From IMG/VR virus record IMGVR_UViG_3300046522_000253, positions 1-34,595 of that record: a stretch of 34,595 nucleotides of DNA; one strand, 5' to 3'. This document shows positions 4,318 to 32,185 of this stretch, in pieces (position 1 is the first letter of the stretch; every line of letters begins with the position of its first letter). Under the pieces are notes generated by a model, which made no database searches, was not told where the DNA came from, and was given only the letters and a program-made list of their open reading frames with translations. This stretch comes from a virus. Position numbers and translations under genes: made by a program.

Positions 4318-4571
4318 GACCTCTCTCCTATGCAAAATTAAATCCCTTAAAAGTCAGTAGGATAAGCGGCTTACATGCTGCAACCTGACAAATTTTTTCT
4401 AATAATACTTGCGCTTCGTAGGATCACTGTAGATCACAATGGTTCACGCGGTGTGCATTTAACACCATCAAAGCTAAATAATGAAAGCTTGATCATGTAA
4501 CAGAGCCCTCCCCCTGTACGAATGCCCAGTATCGGCCTGCCGCCCCACAAATAGTCGCCATCACTGCCGTA
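4318..4571. promoter_or_regulatory. Intergenic region upstream of the toxin-antitoxin operon
   Basis: 254 bp without a gene, AT-rich in parts. It contains three direct repeats with exact 10-bp spacing (GATCAC 4422, GATCAC 4432, GTTCAC 4442). It also holds a GCTAAAT half-site (4473-4479) resembling the CI operator arm, within an AAGCT...AGCTT inverted repeat. A TATTAT candidate -10 lies on the minus strand near 4404-4409; no good -35 was found. It is a plausible control region for the antitoxin promoter. Confidence 0.4.
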
Positions 4572-5336
4572 TCACATGGCTGGCTGTGCATCCTTGTGCC
4601 TGAGGATCAGGCGTGTCCGATCGAGCCACGGCCCACCGAACACGATGACCTCCGACGGCCTTCCGTATAAGTGATGCAGCAGGAAAGGCCCAGGGCCGAA
4701 GGTCGCCGCGTCTTCGCCAGGCAGTGACGGACTGGCGCCGAGGAATATCCCCGCATGATTCGGGTAAACCGTCCGGCCTACCTCCATTACGATCATGTCA
4801 CCTCGCTGAGGCTGGTCGACCCGGTAGAACCCGGCGGCCTCATAGTTGGCTTCGTACAGGCTGGTGTTGTCCTTGCTCTCCCACCAGCCGTCGGCGCGAT
4901 TGAAGGCTTCAAACTCCAGTCCCCACTCGCGCTGATACCAATCCGCGCAGACCTGCCAGCAGTCCCAGGCGCCGTGCACAAACGGCCGCTTGAGCAGTGG
5001 CGTCTCGCCGGAAGGCATGACCGTGCGCAGGTCGCCTTCAGGCCAACTCAGGATGTGCCACGGCATTGCGGTTGCTTCGCATATGGCCAAGTCGCGCGGT
5101 GAAGGCCGACTGGTGGCGTCCGGGTGAGAATGGACGATGCCGATTACTTCGCCGATATCTTCCGCCGCAGCATAGTCTTCAGGGTCAATTCGGAATTCCT
5201 CGTTGGGTTCCGATGCGATGTTTCGACATGGGTAATACTGCTGTTTGCGCCCAATTCCCAGCAGCAGGCCGCAGCACTCCTTCGGGTACTCGGCCGCCGC
5301 GTGTGCCTGAATAGCGTTCAAAATGTGCTTACGCAT
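4572..5336 (-). CDS. K: Tail assembly protein K (JAMM/MPN plus NlpC/P60 peptidase)
   Basis: 254 aa two-domain tail protein. The N-terminal JAB/MPN metallopeptidase has Glu20 (YPKECCG) and the metal motif H69-S-H71-P...D82 (HSHPDATSRPSPRD). The C-terminal NlpC/P60 domain has the Cys at DCWQVC (C126 or C130) and a His in YPNHAG (H194). In lambda, K acts in tail-tip assembly, and its peptidase domains are thought to process tail proteins or act on peptidoglycan. It starts at ATG 5336 with AGGAG upstream, 2 nt after the L stop, so the two are translationally coupled. The next tail gene (I) is displaced about 1.9 kb away by the inserted toxin-antitoxin, membrane protein and lipoprotein genes. Confidence 0.93.
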   Translation of the reverse strand: MRKHILNAIQAHAAAEYPKECCGLLLGIGRKQQYYPCRNIASEPNEEFRIDPEDYAAAEDIGEVIGIVHSHPDATSRPSPRDLAICEATAMPWHILSWPEGDLRTVMPSGETPLLKRPFVHGAWDCWQVCADWYQREWGLEFEAFNRADGWWESKDNTSLYEANYEAAGFYRVDQPQRGDMIVMEVGRTVYPNHAGIFLGASPSLPGEDAATFGPGPFLLHHLYGRPSEVIVFGGPWLDRTRLILRHKDAQPAM

Positions 5337-6097: not shown

Positions 6098-6436
6098 TTA
6101 TGGTTGGAAGGCACGGTCAAAAGTGGCCGTGAGTTTGAAAACGCCGCCGCCCACCGGAGTGGGTACGGGATTCGTGCAGGTGAACAGGCCGAGCTGGCCT
6201 AGAGGCGTGGTCCAGAGGAATGCCTTCGCCCCGGCGTGCCGGTCAAAGAACGCCATGATCTCCAGCACCTTGGCTATTTGACCGGTGTAGGTAATCGGAT
6301 AGGCGTCCTCTTTGTTGTTCGGGCCGTCGCCAGCCGTCTGCTTGTAGCCGTTACCGAACTGCGAGGTGCGCACCCGATAGGTAATTTCGGGTGCGTCACC
6401 GTGCTGAGTTGGCCAGGTGAATGTATCAATCGCCAT
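6098..6436 (-). CDS. M: Minor tail protein M
   Basis: 112 aa, matching lambda M (109). Signature segments: FTWPTQHGDAPEITYRVRTSQFGNGYKQ at the N-terminus and the AKAFLWTTPLGQ and FTCTNPVP stretches near the C-terminus. M caps the tape measure/tail tip complex. Its ATG overlaps the tape measure stop (TGATG), so it is translated by coupling. It sits 9 nt upstream of L. Confidence 0.93.
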   Translation of the reverse strand: MAIDTFTWPTQHGDAPEITYRVRTSQFGNGYKQTAGDGPNNKEDAYPITYTGQIAKVLEIMAFFDRHAGAKAFLWTTPLGQLGLFTCTNPVPTPVGGGVFKLTATFDRAFQP

Positions 6437-9400
6437 CAGGCTCTCCCATTAACGTTGCGGAAACTCACGCCACCAGCACGCCACGACTCGGCCACGGCTC
6501 GCTCTGCTGCGGCCTTCATCTGCGTCTGGAGGTTTTGCGAAAGCGCCTGTTGGTCGAGCTGCATCCCTTCAGAGCTGCGATCCGGAATCGCCACAGTGAC
6601 CGGTGCGTTAATGCTGATGGTTGATCCGCTGCTGCCACCGCTCAAAGCCCGCACGCCAAGCTGGCCGCCGGACGTTCTGGTCAGCGGCATGATCGCCTCC
6701 TCGCCGGCCTCTCCCATGACACCGATATCGCCACCGGCCATGCCAAAGGCTGTTGGCTTGCTCACAATGCTGTTGGTGAAAGCTGCACCGTTGGCAAACA
6801 ACTGCACACCGGACGACCAAGCGCCACCATCGGCCTGAATGCTGCCCGGTGTGAAGCCAGATAGGTCGCCGCTGTAGCCTGCCTGAGTCGATCCTGCTGA
6901 CGCTGTTGATCCCGCACCGCCGGCGAAGTAACTCGCACCTGCGCCGATGAGACTGCCCAGCAGCGCGGAACTGGCTTGCCGAGTAGCAATGCGCGCCATG
7001 TCCGCCAAGATCGATTTCGTAAAGTCCGCGAACGACAACTTCCCGGTCATAGCGAAGTTGACGACTGCGTCCTCCATCGAGCTGAAGGCATTGGTGAACA
7101 GACTTTTCGTCTGCCCGGCGACATCCCGAGCCGATTCCAGGTAGTTCTGCCATGCCGACGTCGCGCCGGCGCTCCAGTCACCCTGGGCTGCCGTCATCTC
7201 ATCGTAATTGGCTTGAACAGTGTCGTGCAGATCCTGTTGTGTAGCTTTCAGCGCTGCCAGCTTCTGGGTGTACTCGTCGAGGCTCATGCCGCTCGAACCA
7301 TCGCCGTACTGGTTTGCCAACTCCAGGCTTTGTTGGTTGAAGCGATCGTCGATTCCGTTCTGCTGATCCGTCAGCCCACGCTGCCGATCACCCTGGCCTA
7401 GGCCAGAAGCCGCACGCAGCCCTTGCTGTCGAAGCGTCTCGACCTGTTGCTGTAAGGCGTCGGTATACGTTTTGACGGCCAGAGTCTGCTTGCGCAGGCG
7501 ACCGTCTTCGTTGGTGGCAATGATTGAAAGTTGGCTGTCCGTCTCCTGCTGCGCCTTGACCATCGCAGTTCGTGCATCCGAGATCTTTTGATCGATCTGG
7601 ATGATCTGCGCCGCAGTCGCTCCCTTTTTGGTCTTGGCTGCTTCCAGAGCTGCGATTTCCGCCTCATATCCCTGGGCTACTTCGACGGCTTCCTGCTTCA
7701 GCAGGCTGACACGTTGCTCCGTGTAGCTGGTCTGCGAGATCACACCGGCCCGCTGAGATGCTTCGAGTTCCTTATCGGCGTTTTTGTAGTAGGCCAGAGT
7801 TTCGGCGAGCACATTTTTTGCGTTGTTGAAGCCCGTCAGGTCGACGCTGCCTGCTGCGCCCTTCGGATCTTTGAACTTGTCGTTGAGGTTCGCCATGTTT
7901 TTGGCGACTGCGGCCGGATCAAGCCGTGCATCGTTCGGGCTGCTCTTGCGGATGTCGTCGAGCTGCTTCTTGTACTCCTTAATTGCCTCGGCGCGCTTCT
8001 GCTCGTTGTTCAGTGAGGATTTCGTCAGGGCATCGACTTTGACCATCGCAGACACAGCATCTTGCTGAGCCTTTGCCTGCTCGCCTTCGTATTTGGCGAT
8101 GTCGGCCGCTGCAGCCTTCTGGTCCTCGAGCATGTTCAGCTGATTGCTGTAGAGCTCAACCATCTCTTTCTGGTTTTGGAAGGCGCCCACATTGCCCGAT
8201 TGCGCCTGCTCCAGATTCCGCCGGGCTTGCTCAATGTCGGCATCGATATCGGGCCGACCCAGGTTCTTCAGGTTGTCCGCAGCTCGCGCGACAGCGTTGT
8301 AACCCTTTTCCCAGAAGCTCAGGTTTTCGAGAATCCTCGGGGTGCGCTCGTTGATCGCATCCGCGTACTGCTCGGTTGCCAGCTTCACGGCGCCGGCATG
8401 GTCGCCCTGCTCTTCCAGAGCGGCGATCTGCGAATAAACCGAAGCTGTCAGGTAGTGGTATTGCTCATTCAGCGCGGCTGACGCCTTGACCGGCTCGTCT
8501 GCGATCTTTTCGAACTCAGCAACCGTCTCTTTTATGGCTTTGCCGGTCGCTTCCTTCATGGACACGGCCGCCTGGGCAATGCCGCCGAAGCTCTCGCCAG
8601 CGATTTTCCCGTTGCCGGCCAGCAGCGCCAGCACTTCGGCAGCCTGGCCAGTCGTGCCGACGGTCGCGCTGACCTGCCGCGCCATTTCGCCAAGTTGGCT
8701 GGCAGTCATGCCAGAGGCGTTACCGGTAAGCACTAGGCCTTTGGTATAGGCGTCCTGCTCTTTGCTGCCTTTGTAGTAGGCAACGGCCAGCCCACCGACG
8801 GCAGCAGCGGCCAAGGCAATTGGCGCAAGAATGGCAAGCAGCCCAGCAGCCGACGCACCCGCACCAGCGCCCAACTGAGCAACAGCACGAACGCCACTGC
8901 CCCAGTCGCCCGAGGAGAGCGCATTGCCGAGCTGCACAACGTTTTCCTGAGCCTGGCGGGTACCAAGTTTCAGCTTGTCGAAACCGGTGGCGGTTTTTTC
9001 CAGTGATGCGTAGTTGCTATTCAGCTTGCCCAGTGCCGAGTTGTACTCGTCCTGACTGATGCGGCCGGCATCGAGATGCTTGCCCAGCTGCTCTACCTGA
9101 GTATCGAGCTTGGCCATGGCCGCACGGGCTGGGTCGATCGCGCCGAGCAGGCTATTCAGCGCCTTCTGTTCATCCAGCGTGGACTTGGCCAACGCCGCCT
9201 GCTGCTTGTCGAGCTGCGCGGTGATCTTGGTGAACTCGGCCTCGCCATAGGCGCCGGTCTTAGTGAGTTTCGCCAGATTTTCGCGCTGCTTTGCCAGTTC
9301 CTGCGTGGTGGTCGCGCCCTTCGACAACGACTTCTCCAGCGCTTCCATCTCTTTCATCAGGCCGACGGCGGACTGCTCCGCTCGATCGCCGGCCTTGGTC

Positions 9401-27089: not shown

Positions 27090-27704
27090 TCAGGCGATTT
27101 TCAAATTCGGTCGGTGCTTGGCGAGCAGTGCTTCTGCCTTCCGGCCGAGCTCCCCTGCCCGCGCTTCAACTTGGCGGCATTGCTTCGCGAACGCCGGCAG
27201 GTGCGGCAAGTCCGCCTCGCACATCACTTGGTCGTCAAAGACGTCGCTGCCGGTGTCGATCACATCACCCAGCGCGCGGATCAGCGCGCCGAAGCTTCTG
27301 TTCGCGCATTGGGAACTTGTCATCTGGCGGGCGCCGATCAGTCCGTGACGGCCGGCCAGTTCGTTGATGCAGTGATCACGGAACTCAGGCTCCAGAGCAT
27401 TCACCCACGACTCTTCCAGCCAAGACGGCATTTCCTGATCACCAGACAGCCAGCGCTGAACACGTTTGAGCCAGCGACCGGTCGCCTTAATGAATTCACC
27501 GGCGTCTTTAGTCAGCTCGGGAGAATTGAAGTCCGGGACCTCTTTCTTCTTCGCTCGCTCTGGAATCGACAGATACAGCTCACGACTCAGCGCCTGGGCG
27601 AAATCATCCTGGCTCAGGCTAGTGCGTGCGATCTGGTTTGCCGCGTGCGCGACCAGCACCTGATCACGGGTTTGGGCTCTGTGTCTTGAACTGGACGTTT
27701 CCAT
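27090..27704 (-). CDS. Unknown 204-aa early protein in the cII slot
   Basis: Between cro and the antirepressor, where lambda has cII. METSSSRHRAQTRDQVLVAHAANQIARTSLSQDDFAQALSRELYLSIPERAKKKEVPDFNSPEL, then a helical KATGRWLKRVQRWLSGDQEMPSWLEESWVNALEPEF and a C-terminal basic helix (ARAGELGRKAEALLAKHRPNLKIA). It has regulator-like composition, but I do not see a known HTH or the CII motif. SD is weak (AGAGAG, about 9 nt). Function not assigned. Confidence 0.65.
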   Translation of the reverse strand: METSSSRHRAQTRDQVLVAHAANQIARTSLSQDDFAQALSRELYLSIPERAKKKEVPDFNSPELTKDAGEFIKATGRWLKRVQRWLSGDQEMPSWLEESWVNALEPEFRDHCINELAGRHGLIGARQMTSSQCANRSFGALIRALGDVIDTGSDVFDDQVMCEADLPHLPAFAKQCRQVEARAGELGRKAEALLAKHRPNLKIA

Positions 27705-27757: not shown

Positions 27758-27997
27758 TTAGGCGGCTTCTTGGGGTTTTGATTCGGTGAGAAGCTCGTAC
27801 AGATCAGGCCGCAGGCCGGACATGGTCAGATCTCCACTTGTTGCGGCTTGAAGCTTTTTCGAAAGCTCCAGGGAAGGCTTCCGATGACCGCCCGCAATTT
27901 GGTAGAGGTAGCCAACGCTGGTGCCTGCCGCTGCCGCAACTCGATCGCGTTCAGGTGCGGTCGCCTTCTTGAGCCACTCTTGCATTTGGGTGGTCAT
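27758..27997 (-). CDS. cro: Cro-like HTH repressor
   Basis: 79 aa from ATG 27997 (MTTQMQEWLKKATAPERDRVAAAAG) with GGAG upstream; a longer frame to 28021 is not preferred. The HTH is ERDRVAAAAGTSVGYLYQIAGGHRKPSLELSKKLQAAT, YdaS/Cro-like. First gene of the rightward early operon, divergent from cI, controlled by operators at 28026-28067. In lysis it should turn down cI. Confidence 0.88.
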   Translation of the reverse strand: MTTQMQEWLKKATAPERDRVAAAAGTSVGYLYQIAGGHRKPSLELSKKLQAATSGDLTMSGLRPDLYELLTESKPQEAA

Positions 27998-28023
27998 GGG
28001 TATTCTCCGTTTGTCTCGCACAG

Positions 28024-28111: not shown

Positions 28112-28846
28112 ATGGATATTTACGCGATCAGAAAGCGCAACCTGGAAGCCCTTGCAGGCAACAGAAAGCGAAAAGAATGTGCAGAGAAATGGGGAACATC
28201 GCCTTCGGTGTTGAGCCAGATCCTCTCCAAAAACCCGGTCAGGAACTTGGGGGACGAGCTCGCGCGCAGAATTGAGGCGGCCGAAGATCTGCCGAAGGGC
28301 TACTTGGACAATGTCCGGGATATGTCATTGACCGCAGAGCTTGCGCCTGAATCTCAGCACACCGAACTAAAGGACATCGCCCTCTGGGATGACTCGACGC
28401 CCATTGATGACGACGAAGTTTCTGTGCCCTTCCTTCGCGAAGTTGAGCTTGCCGCCGGCTCAGGTCGCTTTGTCATTGAGGAAAGCTCGAATTCGTTCCT
28501 GCGGTTCGGAAAACGAAGCCTTCGCCAGAATGGTGTTCAGTTCTCGAACGCAAAATGCGTGACCATTCGTGGAAACAGCATGCTTCCAATTTTGAGGGAT
28601 GGGGCTACGGTGGGAATAAACACCGGCATCACCTCAATTTCCGATGTCACTGATGGCGACCTATACGCGTTAATTCACAATGGCCAGCTTCGCGTGAAGC
28701 AGCTCTATAGACTCCCGTCAGGTGTTCGCCTGCGCAGTTTCAACCGTGAAGAGCACCCGGATGAGGACTACACGTTCCAGGATATTCAGGAGGAGCAGAT
28801 CAGCATCCTCGGGCACGTCTTCTGGTGGGGCATGTACGCCAGGTAG
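28112..28846 (+). CDS. cI: CI-type repressor with LexA/S24 autoprotease domain
   Basis: 244 aa. N-terminal HTH around residues 18-50 (RKRKECAEKWGTSPSVLSQILSK). Cleavage site Ala115-Gly116 (LAAGSG). Peptidase catalytic residues are Ser156 (RGNSMLP) and Lys196 (LRVKQLY). The repressor holds lysogeny and self-cleaves with RecA after DNA damage. ATG 28112 has no recognisable SD in the 20 bp before it, so it may be leaderless as lambda cI is from pRM. It starts the plus-strand immunity operon. Confidence 0.94.
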   Translation: MDIYAIRKRNLEALAGNRKRKECAEKWGTSPSVLSQILSKNPVRNLGDELARRIEAAEDLPKGYLDNVRDMSLTAELAPESQHTELKDIALWDDSTPIDDDEVSVPFLREVELAAGSGRFVIEESSNSFLRFGKRSLRQNGVQFSNAKCVTIRGNSMLPILRDGATVGINTGITSISDVTDGDLYALIHNGQLRVKQLYRLPSGVRLRSFNREEHPDEDYTFQDIQEEQISILGHVFWWGMYAR

Positions 28847-28951: not shown

Positions 28952-29191
28952 ATGGGACTCAATAAGCCAGAGCAGGACCTAAAGCGCGACCTCCAGGGTG
29001 TCGCTTCTGATTTGAAGTGGTCAGCGGTGGAGCTGATGCGAATCGCAGAGCGTGCCAGCTTGGCCGGGAATGAGCCTGATGCCCAAGCCATCATGCGCAT
29101 GATCACGATCTTCCATAACGATGAGGATCGGCTGACGGCGTATGCGGATGAGGTCGGGGCGGGCCGAGTGACGCGGACGAAGGCTGAGTAG
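28952..29191 (+). CDS. 79-aa helical protein in the rex position
   Basis: ATG 28952 with AGGGGG 7 nt upstream (MGLNKPEQDLKRDLQGVASDLKWSAVELMRIAERASLAGNEPDAQAIMRMITIFHNDEDRLTAYADEVGAG...). The frame is open further up, but this start has the best SD. Helical and charged, no recognised domain. It lies downstream of cI on the same strand and upstream of the HipA-like pair, so it is likely made in lysogens. Confidence 0.65.
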   Translation: MGLNKPEQDLKRDLQGVASDLKWSAVELMRIAERASLAGNEPDAQAIMRMITIFHNDEDRLTAYADEVGAGRVTRTKAE

Positions 29192-29239
29192 GTGGTATGG
29201 CGTGGATTTCTAAAGCCTAAAGCCAAAATCGATAGCTCC

Positions 29240-29266
29240 CTCAGCTCGCAAAAATTGCGATCTGAG
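29240..29266. promoter_or_regulatory. Imperfect inverted repeat upstream of the HipA-like gene
   Basis: CTCAG-c-TCGCAA-aaa-TTGCGA-t-CTGAG: 11 paired bases per arm with one mismatch, lacking a T tract. It ends about 10 bp before the SD of the next gene, so it could be an operator or a translation-control hairpin. Confidence 0.5.
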
Positions 29267-29285
29267 GAAGTAGCAAGGAATGCAA

Positions 29286-30032
29286 ATGTTAGAGCGCATT
29301 ACCGCTAAGGAAATAATAAGGCAGAGCGAACAAGGCTTGTCTGTCCAGCCTTTCCTTGTCAGGGCTGAAGACGATCAGACTTACTTCGTCAAAGGTCTTT
29401 CAAGAGCCCTTGGCAATGGGCTGGTTTCGGAGGCTTTATCCGCCGAACTGGGTGCGCACCTCGGACTACCCATTCCTCCATGGAGGGTGATTGATATCCC
29501 TCAGGCCTTAATTGATTTTAGCGTCATGGATGGGATTGGAGACTTAAGTGGTGGCCCGGCATTCGCTTCGCTTCAAGTTGAGAATGCTTCTGATCTGATG
29601 TGGGCAAATCTAAATTCGCTACCTGTCGATCTGAAAAGAAAGGTTTTACTCTTTGATTGGTGGATACTGAATGGTGATCGTGGACTTGGAGAGATTGGAG
29701 GGAACGTCAATCTCATCCTGAACCCGAAAGGGGAGCTCGTGGTGATTGACCACAACGTGGCGTTCGACCCAAATCTCAGCCTAGAAGAGTTCAGGAGGTA
29801 CCACGTCTTTCGAGACCAGTTAGGCTCATTTGATGGAAACCTACTCGCTCGTCTGGATTATTTACCACTTCTTGACGCGGCCCTCGATGACTGGGGTAGG
29901 ATCACCTCCCTCCTACCGGAGGAATGGCTTTGTCGGAACCAAGATCCCGACGACGAATATGAACCAACCCTTCAGCAAAGGCTTCAAATACTGGAAAGGT
30001 TCAAGGATGAGCAGTTCTGGGGGCAATTATGA
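29286..30032 (+). CDS. HipA-like kinase domain protein
   Basis: 248 aa; ATG 29286 with AAGGA 6 nt upstream (an ATG two codons earlier is too near the SD). The kinase hallmarks are: Lys36 in YFVKGLSR, the element NGLVSEALSAELGAHLGLPIPP, the catalytic segment LFDWWILNGDR (N129, D131), a metal-binding Asn in GGNVN (N140-N142), and the DFG-like VIDHNVAF (D155). This fits the HipA-like kinase (HipA_2) family, which is smaller than E. coli HipA (440 aa) and lacks its N-terminal part. The next gene (DUF3037) overlaps it by 4 nt. No HipB-type antitoxin gene is adjacent. The likely role is kinase-based growth control or phage exclusion. Confidence 0.82.
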   Translation: MLERITAKEIIRQSEQGLSVQPFLVRAEDDQTYFVKGLSRALGNGLVSEALSAELGAHLGLPIPPWRVIDIPQALIDFSVMDGIGDLSGGPAFASLQVENASDLMWANLNSLPVDLKRKVLLFDWWILNGDRGLGEIGGNVNLILNPKGELVVIDHNVAFDPNLSLEEFRRYHVFRDQLGSFDGNLLARLDYLPLLDAALDDWGRITSLLPEEWLCRNQDPDDEYEPTLQQRLQILERFKDEQFWGQL

Positions 30033-30865
30033 ACTACATCTGTAACTACTCGATTCTGAGATTCCTGCCTTACCCAGAAACGGGTGAGTTTGTGAATATT
30101 GGGATCGTGCTGCTTGCGAACAATGGAGAGTTTCGCTTCAAAATTGCCACGAAACGCCAGCGTGTAACTCGATTTTTCGAAACCCTTGAGCACAAGGTTT
30201 ACCTTCGCGCGAAAAGCGAGGTTGAGGATGAGTTCAACCGCCTGGTTGGATTCTGCGCACGGCACAAAAACGAGATCAGCTTGCTATCGAGCACATTCAA
30301 GCATCTCATTCACCCCCGGGAGACGATGATGCGTTTCAGCCAGCCGGGGTCTATGGCAACAGACAACATCGGCCAAGCTTTGGATGAGCTATTCGATCAC
30401 TATGTAAATCACAGCTTTGCTAACAAGGAATACCAAGAGAAAGTCTTGGAGCGCCAGCTTGGTACTCTTCTGGCCTCTTCAAACCTGAAGCAGCGCTATA
30501 AAGAGCAGCGCTTAGGCACCAAAGATTACGACGTCAGGTTTCCTTTCGTAATGCTTGCTGATCAGATAGCAGAACAGGCAATCAAGCCTCTTTATTTTGG
30601 GCAGGCTGAGCCTTCTAAGATTCTTGAGCATGGTGACGCATGGTTGTCGAAGGTCATGCGTCTGAATAAGGCGAACAGGCTGGCGAAAGACACCTTATTT
30701 ATTACAGAGCCTCCTGCGCCAGGAAAGCCAAAGCTCCTCAAGGCTTATGACGAGGTAACCCATGCTCTTGCTGAGTTTGAGGGAGTGAGGGTTATTAGCT
30801 CGCACATGCCTAATAAACAAAAACTTGAAGAAATAAAGCGAGGGGTTCCTGAGACCCTTCGCTGA
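30029..30865 (+). CDS. DUF3037 family protein paired with the HipA-like kinase
   Basis: 278 aa; ATG overlaps the kinase stop (ATGA), so the two are translated together. N-terminal MNYICNYSILRFLPYPETGEFVNIGIVLLANNGEFRFKIA is the DUF3037 signature (a Y.i.R..P....E.vNiGvvl pattern). The rest is helical (VEDEFNRLVGFCARHKNEISLLSSTF, KEYQEKVLERQLGTLL). From memory, DUF3037 and HipA-like kinase genes occur side by side in many bacterial genomes, which suggests a two-gene module. Function is unproven; in this place (rexAB-like) exclusion of other phages is a fair hypothesis. Confidence 0.82.
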   Translation: MNYICNYSILRFLPYPETGEFVNIGIVLLANNGEFRFKIATKRQRVTRFFETLEHKVYLRAKSEVEDEFNRLVGFCARHKNEISLLSSTFKHLIHPRETMMRFSQPGSMATDNIGQALDELFDHYVNHSFANKEYQEKVLERQLGTLLASSNLKQRYKEQRLGTKDYDVRFPFVMLADQIAEQAIKPLYFGQAEPSKILEHGDAWLSKVMRLNKANRLAKDTLFITEPPAPGKPKLLKAYDEVTHALAEFEGVRVISSHMPNKQKLEEIKRGVPETLR

Positions 30866-30868
30866 AAA

Positions 30869-30892
30869 TAGTCCGGCCCAGCGCCAGGCTTT
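30869..30892 (+). terminator. Possible terminator after the kinase pair (repeated intergenic motif)
   Basis: CCGGCCCAGCGCCAGGCTTTTTC. A close copy is at 31289-31310. The stem is short (GCC/GGC), so efficiency is uncertain. Confidence 0.45.
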
Positions 30893-30965
30893 TTCATTCT
30901 GCCTTGCGCGCCCGTAGACGCCATCTACACTGACGGTAGCTGATGGATCAGCCCCTTCAACAGAG

Positions 30966-30988
30966 AGCCCGCCATGTGCGGGCTTTTT
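30966..30988 (+). terminator. Intrinsic terminator upstream of the small-gene array
   Basis: AGCCCGC-catgt-GCGGGCT with five Ts, then gttgcctgctacgctttc, also seen near other small genes. It isolates the paralogue array from the kinase operon, so the array needs its own promoter or readthrough. Confidence 0.75.
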
Positions 30989-31027
30989 GTTGCCTGCTAC
31001 GCTTTCTTTCTCTATGGAGGAAATGCC

Positions 31028-31270
31028 ATGTCCACCGCTCCTGAGGATCCAACACATGCCCTGCTCTGCCGCTTCAACCAGAACATCATGGCCCTCGACT
31101 GCGCTATCGAAGAAATCGCTGTCTGGATCGACCAACGTGGCTCTGCGGACGTGTCTGACCAGATTGATGATCATCTGGCTGTGATCACCGAAAACTCGGA
31201 CTTCATAGCCAAAGCCATAGCGGATCTGAGAGCTAGGTGGACGCCGGAAGAAGTTGCTGATCCAGACTGA
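31028..31270 (+). CDS. Small helical paralogue 1 of the array (80 aa)
   Basis: ATG 31028 with GGAGGAAA upstream (MSTAPEDPTHALLCRFNQ). Core: NIMALDCAIEEIAVWIDQRG-18 residues-N, then FIAKAIADLRA. The positions of Gly and Asn and the hydrophobic residues coincide without gaps with the third and fourth genes of the array. Two helices separated by a turn are predicted. Function unknown. Confidence 0.72.
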   Translation: MSTAPEDPTHALLCRFNQNIMALDCAIEEIAVWIDQRGSADVSDQIDDHLAVITENSDFIAKAIADLRARWTPEEVADPD

Positions 31271-31676: not shown

Positions 31677-31898
31677 ATGGCCCACCCAAAACTGTTTCCA
31701 GCTGTGCTGGCCAGCCTTCAACTGAATCAAATGATGATCGGTGAGGCCTTCGAGGAAATCGCAGCCTGGCTAGAAAAGGAAGGCGCGACAGAAACAGCGC
31801 AGAAGCTGAGGGTTCGTGTTGGCGATCTAAGATTCAATGCGGAAACCATGGATAAAGCGATTATTGAGCTGCTCAAGACGGATGAGAGCTTGCACTGA
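31677..31898 (+). CDS. Small helical paralogue 3 of the array (73 aa)
   Basis: ATG 31677 with GGAGGAATG upstream (MAHPKLFPAVLASLQL). Core: NQMMIGEAFEEIAAWLEKEGATETAQ..., then N 18 residues after the Gly, and AETMDKAIIELLK. Aligns without gaps with paralogues 1 and 4. It follows a half terminator (31624-31637) that keeps a CGCGGGCTTTTTG right arm but has lost its left arm. Confidence 0.72.
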   Translation: MAHPKLFPAVLASLQLNQMMIGEAFEEIAAWLEKEGATETAQKLRVRVGDLRFNAETMDKAIIELLKTDESLH

Positions 31899-31966: not shown

Positions 31967-32185
31967 ATGCCTACCCCCGAATACTCTCTCCCCGATGTCC
32001 TTGAGCGCATGCATGAAAATCAAAACGCCCTGGAGGCCGCCATTATGGAGCTGACGCTGCTGATTGAAAGCCAAGGTGCGATCGAGATCGGCGGTAATGT
32101 CCGCGGTGCACTGGATACGATTCGCGAGAATGCCGGGTATATCAACCAAGGTTTGGCCAGGCTGAAGGCTAAGGGCGCGGATTGA
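31967..32185 (+). CDS. Small helical paralogue 4 of the array (72 aa)
   Basis: ATG 31967 (MPTPEYSLPDVLERMHEN); weak SD (GAATGAG). Core: NQNALEAAIMELTLLIESQGAIEIGG..., Asn 18 residues after Gly, then GYINQGLARLKAKG. It shares the upstream motif CTGCTACGCTTTC with the region before paralogue 1. Function unknown. Confidence 0.7.
   Translation: MPTPEYSLPDVLERMHENQNALEAAIMELTLLIESQGAIEIGGNVRGALDTIRENAGYINQGLARLKAKGAD

Follow-up and report, generated by a model that had tools for sequence, protein, structure and literature searches.

A HipA-like kinase and a DUF3037 protein in the immunity region of a Pseudomonas phage form a predicted member of the HipAD defence family

Results

The DNA analysed here, which we call the window, comprises the 34,595 bases of one virus record. 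It is a lambda-like Pseudomonas phage whose closest database phages, Medea1, PseuP_222 and phiAH14a, show ~80% identity across about one third of the first 25 kb of the window. Its immunity region has a lambda-type order. A CII-like activator (27090-27704; phrog_4834, E 2.5e-48) and a Cro-like repressor (27758-28021; phrog_35, E 2e-12) are encoded on the minus strand. Divergently from the latter, the plus strand carries a cI-like repressor with an S24 peptidase domain (28112-28846; Pfam PF00717, E 7e-18; phrog_4 and phrog_6201), a gene for 79 amino acids (28952-29191; phrog_6388, E 5e-33) and the two genes studied here, hipA (29280-30032) and hipD (30029-30865). A preliminary description of this DNA had placed the pair directly downstream of cI. 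The pair is indeed downstream and on the same strand, but it is not strictly adjacent, as the 79-residue gene lies between them; in most phage relatives the two are adjacent. This intervening gene is outside the conserved module, being present in few relatives only. Its homologues occupy the same place in loci L002, L007, L009, L026 and L027 of our survey, the last of which has two copies. Past hipD, between 31031 and 32185, three short open reading frames of ~70-80 amino acids (31031-31270, 31677-31898 and 31967-32185) look by eye like tandem paralogues, and some of them are preceded by GC-rich palindromes that carry a T-run, such as the one at ~30965-30992.

The product of hipA (250 amino acids; phrog_3162) matches the Pfam family HipA_2 (PF20613) over residues 10-249 with E 3.9e-66, and the PADLOC model PDC-M66A with E 1e-11, in agreement with its first recognition as a compact HipA-like kinase. 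An in-frame ATG at 29286 has a better-spaced Shine-Dalgarno sequence (AAGGA) than the ATG at 29280, and may be the real start. Residue numbers are counted here from 29280, so that the kinase residues previously listed as K36, N129-G-D131 and D155, evidently counted from 29286, are the same residues under the numbers K38, N131-G-D133 and D157. When 76 relatives were aligned, K38, E51, N131, D133, R134, N142, N144 and D157 proved invariant in every sequence that covers them (73-75). Of the previously listed residues named above, all but the middle G of N131-G-D133 are thus conserved in a proper alignment.

An AlphaFold2 model of the kinase (pLDDT 82, pTM 0.83) was compared with solved structures. 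The best match was CtkA, a HipA/PI3K-like kinase (Z 12.4, 205 residues, rmsd 3.8), and type II PI4-kinases scored Z ~11.9. HipA structures gave Z 10.0-10.7, with E. coli HipA (3tpb; 198 residues, rmsd 4.1) at the lower and Shewanella HipA (4pu4) at the upper end, and HipT gave Z 9.9-10.3. Given the invariant catalytic residues and the predicted HipA/CtkA-type fold, a working kinase is the natural reading of this gene, and its product would probably be the toxin, or effector, by analogy with the relatives discussed below. Sequence searches found no match for either hipA or hipD product in NCBIfam, and no credible relative of either protein among solved structures. In one relative, locus L023 from Salmonella phage SW-37, the kinase frame (4375-5001) lacks its N-terminal part including the region of the ATP lysine, possibly through disruption of the gene or a sequencing error.

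The second gene, hipD, encodes 278 amino acids (phrog_5137). Its product matches DUF3037 (PF11236) over residues 7-126 with E 9.4e-22, as the preliminary description had proposed, and PADLOC PDC-M66B with E 4e-20. No HipB-like helix-turn-helix (HTH) partner was found in the pair by Pfam search, and DUF1829, with which DS-6B is reported, was detected by Pfam in neither the HipD of the window nor that of Escherichia phage PhiR5_1. The model of HipD has pLDDT 89 and pTM 0.58, so the arrangement of its domains is uncertain. As for the kinase, it was built from an alignment without three database-phage rows. The C-terminal domain runs, in the model, helix-strand-strand-strand-helix-strand-helix-strand-helix. 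When residues 131-276 were compared with solved structures, the top match was the restriction enzyme BstEII (Z 9.9, 132 residues, rmsd 3.4), followed at lower ranks by Cdn1 (Z 8.2), Bax1, CdiA-CT, McrBC and Can2, among which unrelated folds with Z ~7-8.4 are interspersed. This suggests a PD-(D/E)XK-like, that is, restriction-endonuclease-like, fold for the C-terminal half. Remnants of the motif can be found at K186 and at the helix residue E137 (each in 72/76 sequences), while across the family a hydrophobic residue or proline stands in place of the beta-2 acid and of the beta-3 D/E. Because these acidic positions are replaced throughout and only the lysine is kept, an active nuclease appears unlikely from sequence and model. 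The domain might instead bind DNA.

In order to examine how often the two families occur together, we surveyed loci using DUF3037 alone as the query. A HipA_2 gene lies immediately upstream in 88/104 loci, so the association extends well beyond the window; those where it does not include some at contig ends and some with short, low-scoring DUF3037 proteins. The genes of the window overlap by ATGA at 30029-30032 (plus strand), the stop/start overlap already noticed in the preliminary description. An overlap of 4 nt (ATGA, GTGA or TTGA) occurs in 85 of the 88 adjacent pairs, and it is ATGA in all 24 phage and viral loci. In 23 of these 24 loci (window counted) the large gene upstream of the pair codes for an S24 peptidase domain, the exception being L023, where a short reading frame with only a repressor HTH is found. 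In cellular genomes S24 peptidases account for only 8/49 upstream genes; among the remainder are genes typical of defence islands, coding for type I restriction subunits, MmeI, TIR and Schlafen proteins. Many relatives lie on chromosomes or plasmids at sites where no cI was found nearby.

Upstream of hipA we located the hairpin-like inverted repeat that had been reported to precede the kinase gene. It spans 29236-29270, with 16-nt arms that are 88% complementary and a 3-nt loop. A repeat as good arose in 0/1000 shuffles of the 99-nt gap and in 3/1000 shuffles of a 444-nt region, and the repeat is therefore above chance. Since it overlaps the sequence GAGG at 29264-29267, upstream of the start codon, it could possibly be a leader hairpin or an operator; conservation supports neither, the repeat being common only to the near-identical L002 among the relatives. 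A conserved autoregulatory operator was rejected, as relatives lack the repeat, and so was a terminator, as no T-run follows it. In L007 the stretch immediately ahead of hipA (~5187-5210) holds an unrelated hairpin, a perfect one of 9 bp with a T-run behind it; it resembles a terminator and could keep the cI transcript from reading into hipA. A simple scan, which is not conclusive for Pseudomonas, found no sigma-70 promoter belonging to the pair itself, and its expression in a lysogen is therefore deduced from position alone.

A tree was calculated by a short search from concatenated kinase and partner sequences of 76 loci. Pseudomonas copies linked to cI form one well-supported branch of 20 rows, together with one relative without cI, and the enterobacterial copies, including that of PhiR5_1, form a separate well-supported branch, with lineages without cI in between. 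A single clade of Pseudomonas and enterobacterial cI-linked copies was rejected (p-AU 0.0005), in a test where the groups were named after the tree had been seen and long branches are present. Scattered cI-linked copies are also found in Xanthomonas and Halomonas. Judged from these sequences, the pair adjoins cI in two separate lineages, which suggests that the rex position has been reused. Further, positions 4932-6973 of L002, another viral contig, are 97.5% identical in DNA to positions 28957-31002 of the window, a stretch reaching from the start of the 79-residue gene to past hipD, while the cI proteins of the two are only ~17% identical. A cassette so well conserved next to an unrelated cI points to an exchange that is recent by comparison with the repressor. 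Both proteins of the pair recur at 100% identity in a second phage.

Discussion

The preliminary description saw here a candidate for a system not yet described. The observation is real, but the defence family itself is not new: on sequence grounds the pair belongs to a family already described as HipAD, DS-6 or PDC-M66, of which it is a member from a Pseudomonas phage. PDC-M66 is a candidate phage-defence system of PADLOC, and both proteins of the window match it. The name HipAD reportedly comes from Brenes and Laub 2025, a study said to concern defence systems of E. coli prophages. The closest annotated counterpart that we compared is in PhiR5_1, where cI is followed immediately by genes annotated as HipA toxin and HipD antitoxin, which likewise overlap by ATGA. 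The window proteins align with them over most of their length (HipA 32%, E 3e-32; HipD 33%, E 7e-31). In both lambda-like phages a kinase gene and then a DUF3037 gene, with the same Pfam domains, lie downstream of cI; on the other hand, PhiR5_1 is an enterobacterial phage whose copies fall on a separate branch of the tree, and the window has the 79-residue gene after cI. Since the nearest annotated HipAD is only ~33% identical, trigger and target may differ.

Experimental evidence comes from other members of the family. In the Retron-Sda1 operon, deletion of the HipA kinase abolishes defence against Bas51 and deletion of DUF3037 is toxic, while the reverse transcriptase and the ncRNA are dispensable for defence, and the Sda1 pair was identified as PDC-M66, a stand-alone defence (PMC12548924). 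The two families are the same as in the window, although in Sda1 they form part of the operon of a type III retron. DS-6, a DefensePredictor system for which the name HipAD was then adopted from Brenes and Laub 2025, loses defence on catalytic mutation, and AlphaFold3 predicts contacts of the kinase with its partner and of the partner with DNA (PMC13092281).

These data also bear on the earlier view that the pair is not a standard toxin-antitoxin. It is correct that HipB is absent: HipBA and HipBST share the kinase fold (Z 10.0 for HipA and 9.9 for HipT against the window kinase), but here the toxin gene comes first, the kinase is compact at 250 amino acids, and the partner is a DUF3037 protein without an HTH match rather than the HTH antitoxin HipB. 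However, as DUF3037 acts as antitoxin in Sda1, the single version in which its restraint of the kinase has been put to the test, the pair is probably a toxin-antitoxin with a different antitoxin, a role that we would assign to HipD by analogy; HipD might also be a sensor. The other comparison that had been drawn, with lambda RexAB, concerns the position downstream of cI on its strand and a presumed role in exclusion. The proteins themselves are different, a kinase and a DUF3037 protein in place of RexA and RexB, and a Pfam search with a cut-off of E 1 gave no match to a Rex family. Given the experiments on relatives and the PhiR5_1 pair in the same position, phage exclusion or growth control from the rexAB position stays the best reading of this locus.

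By analogy with these relatives, the pair most likely acts as a defence of toxin-antitoxin type through abortive infection, and we give a probability of roughly 0.85 to HipAD-family defence working as follows. A lysogen would express the pair from the cI transcript, as its position indicates, with the ATGA overlap keeping HipA and HipD co-produced. The kinase would be toxic alone and restrained by HipD, as shown for relatives. A superinfecting phage would disturb the HipA-HipD complex and free the kinase, which would then phosphorylate an essential target; a translation factor is our guess from HipA and HipT. Growth would stop and the invader would not be propagated, so that the prophage would protect its host from competitors. 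The C-terminal domain of HipD may bind DNA, for autoregulation or for sensing. A more specific version, in which the site downstream of cI is a docking site filled with HipAD independently by unrelated phage lineages and the antitoxin is itself the sensor, detecting invaders through a catalytically dead, restriction-endonuclease-like domain that binds DNA, is in our judgement rather unlikely.

Alternatively, the pair could be a stabilising toxin-antitoxin that kills cells losing the prophage, with phage defence as an incidental effect. The toxicity of deleting the partner in Sda1 (PMC12548924) would fit such addiction, as would the relatives on plasmids. We nevertheless consider it improbable, because defence depends on the kinase in relatives (PMC12548924, PMC13092281) and chromosomal copies lie beside other defence genes, although the two roles are not exclusive.

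That the pair sits in the immunity region of many phages could also indicate a regulator of lysis and lysogeny, the kinase modifying a host or phage factor so as to stabilise lysogeny and leaving other phages unaffected. The many chromosomal and plasmid relatives with no cI found nearby, and the movement of the cassette between phages with unrelated cI, make this very hard to sustain. Finally, decaying, non-functional cargo, of which the SW-37 relative without the N-terminal part of its kinase frame might be an example, can practically be dismissed for the window, where both frames are open, the catalytic residues are intact and a second phage has the same proteins at 100%.

What our analysis adds to the HipAD defence family is modest and comes from computational inference: a Pseudomonas-phage member, evidence that the slot after cI is used repeatedly and by a mobile cassette, and a predicted inactive nuclease-like domain in HipD. 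Phage-borne HipAD is extended in this way from enterobacterial to Pseudomonas phages. The slot after cI appears, as the tree and L002 suggest, to be used repeatedly for exclusion modules, with a cassette that swaps without its repressor. The predicted domain of HipD offers a concrete hypothesis for an antitoxin that senses invading DNA. In L028, from an uncultured Pseudomonadaceae, the HipA_2/DUF3037 pair is immediately preceded by a gene for a RIO1-type kinase (6340-7197; PF01163, E 2e-42), so that two kinases are encoded in tandem.
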